Assembly: GCA_020351995.1 (NCBI GenBank) | Contig: CP070674.1 | Span: forward strand, 686,489 to 725,145 | Length of the DNA: 38,657 nt | From: Candidatus Zixiibacteriota bacterium | GTDB lineage: Bacteria > Zixibacteria > MSB-5A5 > GN15 > FEB-12 | Direction: 5' to 3' | Part shown: positions 5,184-10,975 of the stretch, piece after piece | How the letters are laid out: the number at the start of each line of letters is the position of its first letter | How positions within the stretch are numbered: the stretch's first letter is position 1 | Notes under the pieces: model-generated | Told to the model about the DNA's origin: nothing | Database searches by the model: none | Seen by the model: the letters and a program-made list of their open reading frames with translations, nothing else | Position numbers and translations under genes: made by a program

Positions 5184-5700
5184 TACTTTAGCATCGGGGG
5201 CGCCTTCGCATCGCTAAATATAAACCAAGGCCCAAGTTATAGCCACCTGATATTGACCCGTCGATTCCCCAGATGATTTCAGAGTATGGCGAGCCGAAAT
5301 AAGCTCGCGGGCGGTCAAGATCGCCGATTTTGCGCCAATTTTGCGCACGAAAGCATTAAACAAACGGCTGGCCTTATCAGTCCTTTGTAATGGAATCGCA
5401 GATTCAGCGGCTCCAGCGGTAGACTGTACCGGGCACAACGCCAACCCGAGCAGTCGACGCCGTCCGCGGGAAGGCGCTGAGACACAACGGTTAAGGCGAG
5501 TAAGAATGACGACAACCACCTTGATTGACAGGGGCGGCCTGTGTAGGCCTTCTCGGCTTTTCGCGGGCCCGGCACATCTGCGGCACTATTACCTAATCTG
5601 CCAATCCCTTCACCCGATTCAAAACAGTCGAGGCTTGACGTCTGACGACTTGCCGAAACTCATGTCGATTCCATATACCGAAGAACTTTTAACTTTTAGC
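5184..5700. other. Gene-poor stretch
   Basis: Several overlapping reading frames of about 60-140 codons exist on both strands, but none has a good start, a plausible composition or a recognisable domain. No rnpB, tmRNA or SRP RNA signatures were found. Weak promoter-like boxes occur near 5635-5680 and might serve the terminated RNA that follows. Confidence 0.5.
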
Positions 5701-5714
5701 AAGGAGGACCAGCT

Positions 5715-5744
5715 ATGGGGAGTTATGTCCGCCTTGATTTCTGA
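5715..5744 (+). CDS. Possible nine-residue leader peptide
   Basis: ATG at 5715 opens a nine-residue frame (MGSYVRLDF) ending in TGA. AAGGAGGA (5701-5708) is an excellent ribosome-binding site six bases upstream, better than most full genes here. The coding part carries the left arm of the 9-bp hairpin at 5725-5766. The segment CCGCCTT inside the frame could instead pair with the ribosome-binding site, so two exclusive folds are possible. This is the geometry of an attenuation leader. It may equally be chance. Confidence 0.35.
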   Translation: MGSYVRLDF

Positions 5745-5876
5745 TCGGAGGGAATAGGGCGGACATCCACGAAGACAAGGTTTGTATAGCTTACTTAGCC
5801 AGGATTCACGTCTATCTCTTGAACCGCAACGTAATACACATCTATTCTGGCTAAGTAGTATGATCTTGTGTAAGAC

Positions 5877-5915
5877 GAAGACCCGATGAGCTAACTGGCT
5901 ATCGGGTCTTCTTTT
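5877..5915 (+). terminator. Strong intrinsic terminator
   Basis: GAAGACCCGAT (5877-5887) pairs perfectly over 11 bases with ATCGGGTCTTC (5901-5911), followed by TTTT. A small inner AGC/GCT stem lies in the loop. It ends a plus-strand transcript that contains no conventional gene. Confidence 0.88.
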
Positions 5916-5963
5916 GACCTATATAGTATTGGCTGGCCCCCTCTATCTTGCAACCGCACCTCG

Positions 5964-6013: not shown

Positions 6014-6128
6014 ACACTCTCTTTCAAAAGGTTACTTGTAACACGAGTCCCGCCGGCCAGTGGCGGCATCCGGCTTGCAAAAAGTAGTTGTGAACGAAAT
6101 GAAACTACTTCAGCAGGACGGTAGGAAT

Positions 6129-6362
6129 ATGAGAGTGAAGTTTGTTCTCACCATGGATGATGTAGAAATTGACGACAAGGTAATAGATCAGATCATAATG
6201 GACTGGGAAACCGATATCGGGCAGGAAGAGATTCTGGAGCTTTCGCACAAGTGGATAACCTCCAAGAATTTCTTGACAACCCGTATGGAGGGGTTGGTTC
6301 GGGTGGGGGAATCATCGCTGATGATCGAGCCACTGGAGGAGGATCAGAATGTCGAATGGTGA
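6129..6362 (+). CDS. Small acidic protein of unknown function
   Basis: A 77-residue acidic soluble protein without a recognised domain. It contains DDVEIDDKVIDQIIMDWETD near the N-terminus and ends in EPLEEDQNVEW. The chosen ATG has AGGA ten bases upstream; an in-frame ATG at 6099 and a GTG at 6060 would lengthen it to 87 or 100 residues but have no ribosome-binding site. It overlaps the next gene by 14 bases, so the two are probably translated together. A TATAAT box lies about 110 bases upstream. Confidence 0.65.
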   Translation: MRVKFVLTMDDVEIDDKVIDQIIMDWETDIGQEEILELSHKWITSKNFLTTRMEGLVRVGESSLMIEPLEEDQNVEW

Positions 6363-6684
6363 CCTGTTGACCCAGGCCAGACAGTTAGCCGAGGGGGCGG
6401 CGAAGAAAGCCGATGAGTTCTCCGGGGTATTGGGCTCGGCACAAGGTTTCATTCTGGAGCAGTTCGGTCAGAATGGTCTGTACGCCGCCTATATACTCGT
6501 CGCGGCGCTCTCGGTTTTCATACTATCAAAACTGGTCAAAATTACCTTTGCCACCGTAAAGTACCTCGTGATACCTTCAATGGCTCTCGCCTTTCTCGGT
6601 TCATTCTTCGTGCCTTATTCGTTTCCGACTCTGCTCCCGGTAACGGTGACAGTCTGTTCGGTATTTTTGCTGTTCAAGGGCTGA
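6349..6684 (+). CDS. Small membrane protein of unknown function
   Basis: A 111-residue protein with a polar helical N-terminus (about residues 1-40), then two or three hydrophobic segments (about residues 44-62, 66-85 and 91-110). GGAGGA lies eight bases before the ATG inside the preceding gene, supporting this start and translational coupling. No catalytic motif is visible. With the small acidic protein before it, it may form a membrane-recruited pair; that is inference from the overlap only. Confidence 0.75.
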   Translation: MSNGDLLTQARQLAEGAAKKADEFSGVLGSAQGFILEQFGQNGLYAAYILVAALSVFILSKLVKITFATVKYLVIPSMALAFLGSFFVPYSFPTLLPVTVTVCSVFLLFKG

Positions 6685-10929: not shown

Positions 10930-10975
10930 TTGACAAAAATACCTTTTCATATATAATGTTTCTATACATAGAAAC
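10930..10975 (+). promoter_or_regulatory. trpRB promoter with overlapping TrpR operator candidate
   Basis: A perfect -35 box TTGACA (10930-10935), a 16-base spacer and a perfect -10 box TATAAT (10952-10957). Immediately after it, GTTTCTAT-AC-ATAGAAAC (10958-10975) is a perfect dyad with eight-base arms, covering the predicted transcription start. A bound repressor there would block RNA polymerase. Since the next gene encodes a TrpR-family repressor, autoregulation by tryptophan-loaded TrpR is the simplest reading. An additional GAAAC half-site lies at 10922-10926. Confidence 0.8.

Follow-up and report, generated by a model that had tools for sequence, protein, structure and literature searches.

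Results

A terminated, structured element upstream of a two-gene operon

Positions 5701–5915 of the window (the whole stretch of DNA that was analysed, 38,657 nt at positions 686,489–725,145 of a single-contig genome) hold a strong Shine-Dalgarno (SD) sequence, a nine-codon ORF whose ATG at 5715 follows it after 7 nt, two stems and an intrinsic terminator. The SD and ORF are present in the sequence as the original prediction described them, and its two stems and strong terminator were seen in the predicted fold, a set of separate hairpins. Minimum free energy for 5701–5915 was −83.5 kcal/mol, compared with −60.8 ± 4.9 kcal/mol for dinucleotide shuffles (z = −4.63); none of 200 shuffles folded as well. 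The features of the locus are:

5526..5554, + strand: promoter relic, TTGACA (5526–5531), 17 nt, then CCTTCT replacing TATAAT; matched to the promoter of relatives
5606..5615, + strand: leader motif CCCTTCACCC, which varies on CCUCAC, a motif present in 28 of 41 leaders (2.2 expected)
5701..5707, + strand: SD AAGGAGG; GGAGG is followed 5–10 nt on by ATG in nearly all copies
5715..5744, + strand: mini-ORF MGSYVRLDF*, stretched to nine codons in the window; read from the sequence
5725..5766, + strand: P1 hairpin, from the fold; the anchored helix beats shuffles family-wide
5775..5870 (start approximate), + strand: P2 stem, a shortened form of a longer domain, from the fold
5867..5878, + strand: 3' motif UGUGUAAGACGA, family consensus UCCGYAAUACGA, from alignment A2 and model R1 (38 bits)
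5877..5915, + strand: intrinsic terminator, with hairpin 5877–5911 and T-run 5912–5915, from the fold
5927..5945, + strand: inverted repeat resembling an activator site, between terminator and sigma-54 promoter; TATGGG-N-CCCATA-like in relatives, with 3 mismatches here
6065..6079, + strand: sigma-54 promoter GGCAT-N5-TTGCA of the downstream operon, from family comparison

The downstream operon (6129–6684) is uncharacterised and belongs to Zixibacteria; its two genes encode a 77-aa protein (P0001) and then a 111-aa probable membrane protein. Neither product matched a Pfam or NCBIfam family above cut-off, and the predicted fold of P0001 (mean pLDDT 78) had no significant PDB match. Second, diverged copies of the 77-aa protein were noted elsewhere in four genomes of family f4 (G048, G055, G057, G058).

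An Rfam scan of 5701–5915 produced no family reaching its gathering score; the best weak match, to the trpB ncRNA motif RF04312, reached 20.6 bits (E 2.6) where 59 is the cut-off. Covariance models for tmRNA and RNase P RNA did not match at the locus and found their clear targets elsewhere in the genome (194 and 300 bits). The 6S RNA model matched neither the locus, which is not one long hairpin with a central bubble, nor any other part of the source genome (G000). OLE RNA was likewise without a model match at the locus, even at E 10.

Homologs across one Zixibacteria order

A DNA search found the element in a genome of the same genus (G002) and a match to its terminator in G009; in each case an orthologue of the small protein encoded at 6129 lies downstream. 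P0001 served as the anchor for collecting homologous loci, and was itself found in 46 of 54 genomes of the family and 70 of 80 of the order; with such sampling, RNA copies unlinked to P0001 are under-sampled. The element lies upstream of this same small-protein gene in more than 50 genomes of one Zixibacteria order, its architecture recurring in dozens of genomes from families f1, f3 and f4; it was not found at the P0001-upstream position in family f2 or in other orders. Two f3 loci (L067, L068) have an RNA about twice as long, with an SD, an MK* or MR* minigene and different intervening sequence.

Model R1 describes the 3' module in 59 positions and was built with the copies of the window and G002 left out. 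It found 5861–5918 in the window at 38 bits (E 7e-7; its E-values are rough), as the sole hit at E ≤ 0.1 in the whole source genome. Genomes generally had one strong copy, and almost nothing strong was found outside this order. DNA similarity searches of phages and plasmids gave no match to the element, and a text search of one library of open-access papers gave none that mentions Zixibacteria together with noncoding RNA. The suggestion of a new small RNA is supported, in the form of an order-wide, syntenic, terminated and structured element with no Rfam match. Judged from sequence comparison, 5701–5915 holds a diverged copy of a structured RNA, hitherto undescribed, that is found across one Zixibacteria order. 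The divergence of the window copy lies in its longer ORF, shortened core and degenerate −10 box.

Promoter and leader

In relatives a sigma-70-like promoter, TTGACA-N17-TATAWT, is predicted upstream of the RNA, scoring at least 13 in 35 of 43 cases compared with 3.7% of shuffles, and its −10 box falls at a median of −139 from the SD. Starting some 140 nt ahead of the SD, the RNA would carry a C-rich leader (C/G 1.67). The window promoter scored only 10.8; it keeps TTGACA at 5526 and has lost its −10, making expression of this copy uncertain. Lacking a recognizable −10 box, the window copy may be weakly expressed or decaying. The sole perfect TTGACA-N-TATAAT promoter-like site within the window lies at 10930–10957. 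At the other end of the element, terminators were strong in all 48 relatives tested, none being weaker than −16 kcal/mol.

Folding predictions pair the SD with the C-rich leader, to an extent of 0.75 compared with 0.63 for shuffled leaders (p = 9e-4). The leader segment predicted to pair with it varies from genome to genome and is seldom CCUCAC, so that no partner is conserved.

An SD and start codon followed by an early stop

The strong ribosome-binding site and the start codon are the most conserved parts of the RNA, more so than ORF length, and SD–AUG spacing stays within 5–10 nt across copies. A stop codon falls within three codons after the conserved AUG in 31 of 52 distinct copies; the other two frames of the same copies have 4 and 5 early stops, and shuffles have a mean of 7.6 and a maximum of 19, although the copies are related by descent, so that the result with shuffles cannot be read strictly as a probability. 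Selection for the early stop is best argued from the variety of codons and stops across the three families. The short ORFs include ME*, MK*, MR*, MD*, MI*, MT*, MII*, MIE* and MGP*, with codon 2 varied and the stop being TGA in 13 cases, TAA in 12 and TAG in 6. Longer ORFs, of 7 to >40 codons, occur in about 40% of copies, so that a short ORF is preferred, not required.

The nine-residue ORF singled out by the original prediction is present in the window and in G002, and is not conserved beyond them; most relatives have 1–3 codons. In the same genus, the G003 ORF is MGS* (ATGGGGAGTTAA), where the window reads ATGGGGAGTTAT..., indicating that the window ORF is a lengthened version. As a family these RNAs have the parts of a ribosome minigene, namely SD, AUG, normal spacing and selected early stop; the window copy itself, at nine codons, falls outside the two-to-six-codon range of minigenes. 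The probable role of such a minigene is to load a ribosome, not to encode a peptide.

Stems and core

In most copies P1 starts 9–16 nt downstream of the A of the AUG. Tested as an anchored helix against shuffles, it reached z > 2 in 20 of 52 copies, with a median of 1.65. The two arms of P1 are unrelated in sequence between genomes, yet still complementary. Within the genus there are compensatory stem changes: UCCGCC/GGCGGA in the window, UCCGUC/GACGGG in G002 and UCCAC/GUGGG in G001. P2 occupies the same place in these three genomes with a stem of unrelated sequence.

Most relatives have a core of 200–300 nt, with enriched CAGGGA and CCUAUCAUCC loops; one f4 genome is almost without a core, with 76 nt from SD to 3' motif. 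RNAalifold, applied to a whole-element MAFFT alignment, recovered only the terminator, a result we attribute to a core too diverged for this approach.

The proposed switch between P1 and pairing of the SD with 5729–5735 fared less well. That pairing (6 of 7 pairs, one A-G mismatch) is of moderate quality in the window (z = −1.75) and in G002 (z = −2.5), but it is not a family feature, with a mean z of −0.39 over 48 copies. Competition of another kind would be expected, between P1 and a ribosome on the start codon, because P1 starts 9–16 nt from the AUG.

A proposed mode of action

The reading that we favor, with somewhat better than even confidence, is a structured RNA in its own right, which carries a minigene that loads a ribosome and lets it terminate almost immediately, and which acts in trans and is not an attenuator of the genes at 6129. 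The RNA gene would be laid out as a C-rich leader, SD-AUG-(usually 1–3 codons)-stop, P1, a variable core, UCCGYAAUACGA and a terminator, with the start of P1 inside the stretch that a ribosome at the start codon would be expected to cover. If the gene is transcribed, a ribosome would most likely load on the minigene and terminate almost at once, thereby occupying the 5' part but leaving the structured body folded. Such occupancy would protect the RNA from 5'-end decay, keep P1 open, or both; the lifetime or fold of the RNA would then depend on translation initiation and not on any amino acid. The RNA would act in trans via its exposed conserved motifs. Several findings sit poorly with this reading: about 40% of copies have longer ORFs, most of the SD pairing is predicted to be taken up by the C-rich leader, with no conserved partner, every placed copy but one is adjacent to the sigma-54 operon, and the window copy has no recognizable −10 box.

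The usual view of structured bacterial RNAs is that they avoid ribosomes; here ribosome loading and immediate release would be among the most conserved features. Such a family would tie the structure or stability of an RNA to the availability of ribosomes, and would be the first described RNA class of its kind for Zixibacteria.

One rival, which we consider unlikely, is a passive 5' stabilizer: the SD and AUG would do nothing but stabilize a small RNA, with no regulated switch, the short ORF sparing its body from ribosomes. Greater conservation of SD–AUG than of ORF length fits such a role, for which there are precedents in STAB-SD sequences and in protection by mini-ORF ribosome-binding sites (PMC3997798, PMC8708949). 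In those precedents, however, SD binding alone can suffice, which leaves conservation of the AUG and early stop unexplained, and the conserved spacing of P1 also argues against it.

Relation to the downstream operon

About equally improbable in our judgement is the cis attenuator or leader, in which transcription from the upstream promoter halts at the terminator unless the state of the mini-ORF ribosome permits read-through into 6129. In its favor, the RNA stays beside P0001 in nearly all genomes while its other-side neighbor varies (lepB in 6 of 55, and about 20 unrelated neighbor clusters). Against it, the operon has a sigma-54 promoter of its own, GGCAY-N5-TTGCA with at most one mismatch, which separates the terminator from the gene in 94 of 101 loci. 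The terminators are strong and there is no sign of an antiterminator: complementarity of the terminator 5' arm to upstream RNA had a mean z of +0.26, and 0 of 48 copies fell below −1.5. No control codons are conserved in the leader ORF, which mostly has one or two variable codons after the AUG and so offers nothing to sense, and it usually lies 200–300 nt from the terminator. A stand-alone copy of the RNA in G029 (L155) is far from P0001, with only a convergent PAPS-reductase-like gene beyond it. Upstream of the P0001 gene of that genome (L038) the sequence is different and lacks the RNA. The sigma-54 promoter, the missing antiterminator and the stand-alone copy speak against the translation-coupled attenuator that the original prediction put forward for the 6129 genes. 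Because the RNA keeps its place beside P0001 while the other neighbor changes, there is room for a cis role, and functional linkage to the P0001 operon, in cis or as a partner, may exist.

A more elaborate scheme, which we consider rather doubtful, makes the RNA a sensor of translation initiation: the contest between P1 and a ribosome on the 1–3-codon ORF would set its fold and trans activity, which would thus reflect the ease of initiation, perhaps within a ribonucleoprotein with products of the P0001/P0002 membrane operon.

A CsrA sponge is very improbable. Its putative binding sites would be AUGGAGGA, AUGGAG and the CAGGGA loop; csrA is in the genome and CAGGGA is enriched (18 vs 3.7), but GGA in the RNA body overall is at chance, at 243 compared with 243.1 expected, where a Csr/Rsm sponge should exceed chance, and the second GGA is missing from several f4 copies. 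That this is a small mRNA with the nine-residue peptide as its product can scarcely be right despite the strong SD and the nine codons shared with G002, since the ORF is unconserved in length and sequence and mostly has 2–4 codons including the start.

Comparison with known systems

That a ribosome bound at a mini-ORF can protect mRNA is well established (PMC8708949; reviewed in PMC3997798), and start-stop ORFs have been detected by ribosome profiling (PMC11955535). The RNA resembles leader-peptide attenuators in its SD, short ORF, stems and terminator, and differs from them in having no antiterminator and no control codons, and in that the next gene has its own promoter. It resembles OLE RNA (PMC12054373, PMC12265935), which is large and structured, has an SD-like segment contacting the translation machinery, and has an associated membrane protein; the SD/anti-SD mimic of OLE RNA binds bS21 (PMC12054373). 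Unlike the RNA here, OLE RNA is about 600 nt long, strongly conserved in sequence and without a minigene. STAB-SD 5' stabilizers (PMC3997798) are SD-like untranslated sequences that can bind ribosomes and block 5' decay; here, by contrast, an AUG and usually a stop follow the SD at proper spacing.

The two- to six-codon leader minigenes axe-txe mg2, the LEE4 mini-ORF and phage lambda bar share with the RNA a strong SD, an AUG and an early stop (PMC8708949, PMC8012679), and those of axe-txe and LEE4 are thought to act in cis, the ribosome shielding the RNA (PMC8708949, PMC8012679). Whereas these minigenes are either toxic or followed on their mRNA by a protein gene, the minigene here heads a terminated, structured RNA and has been kept across families.
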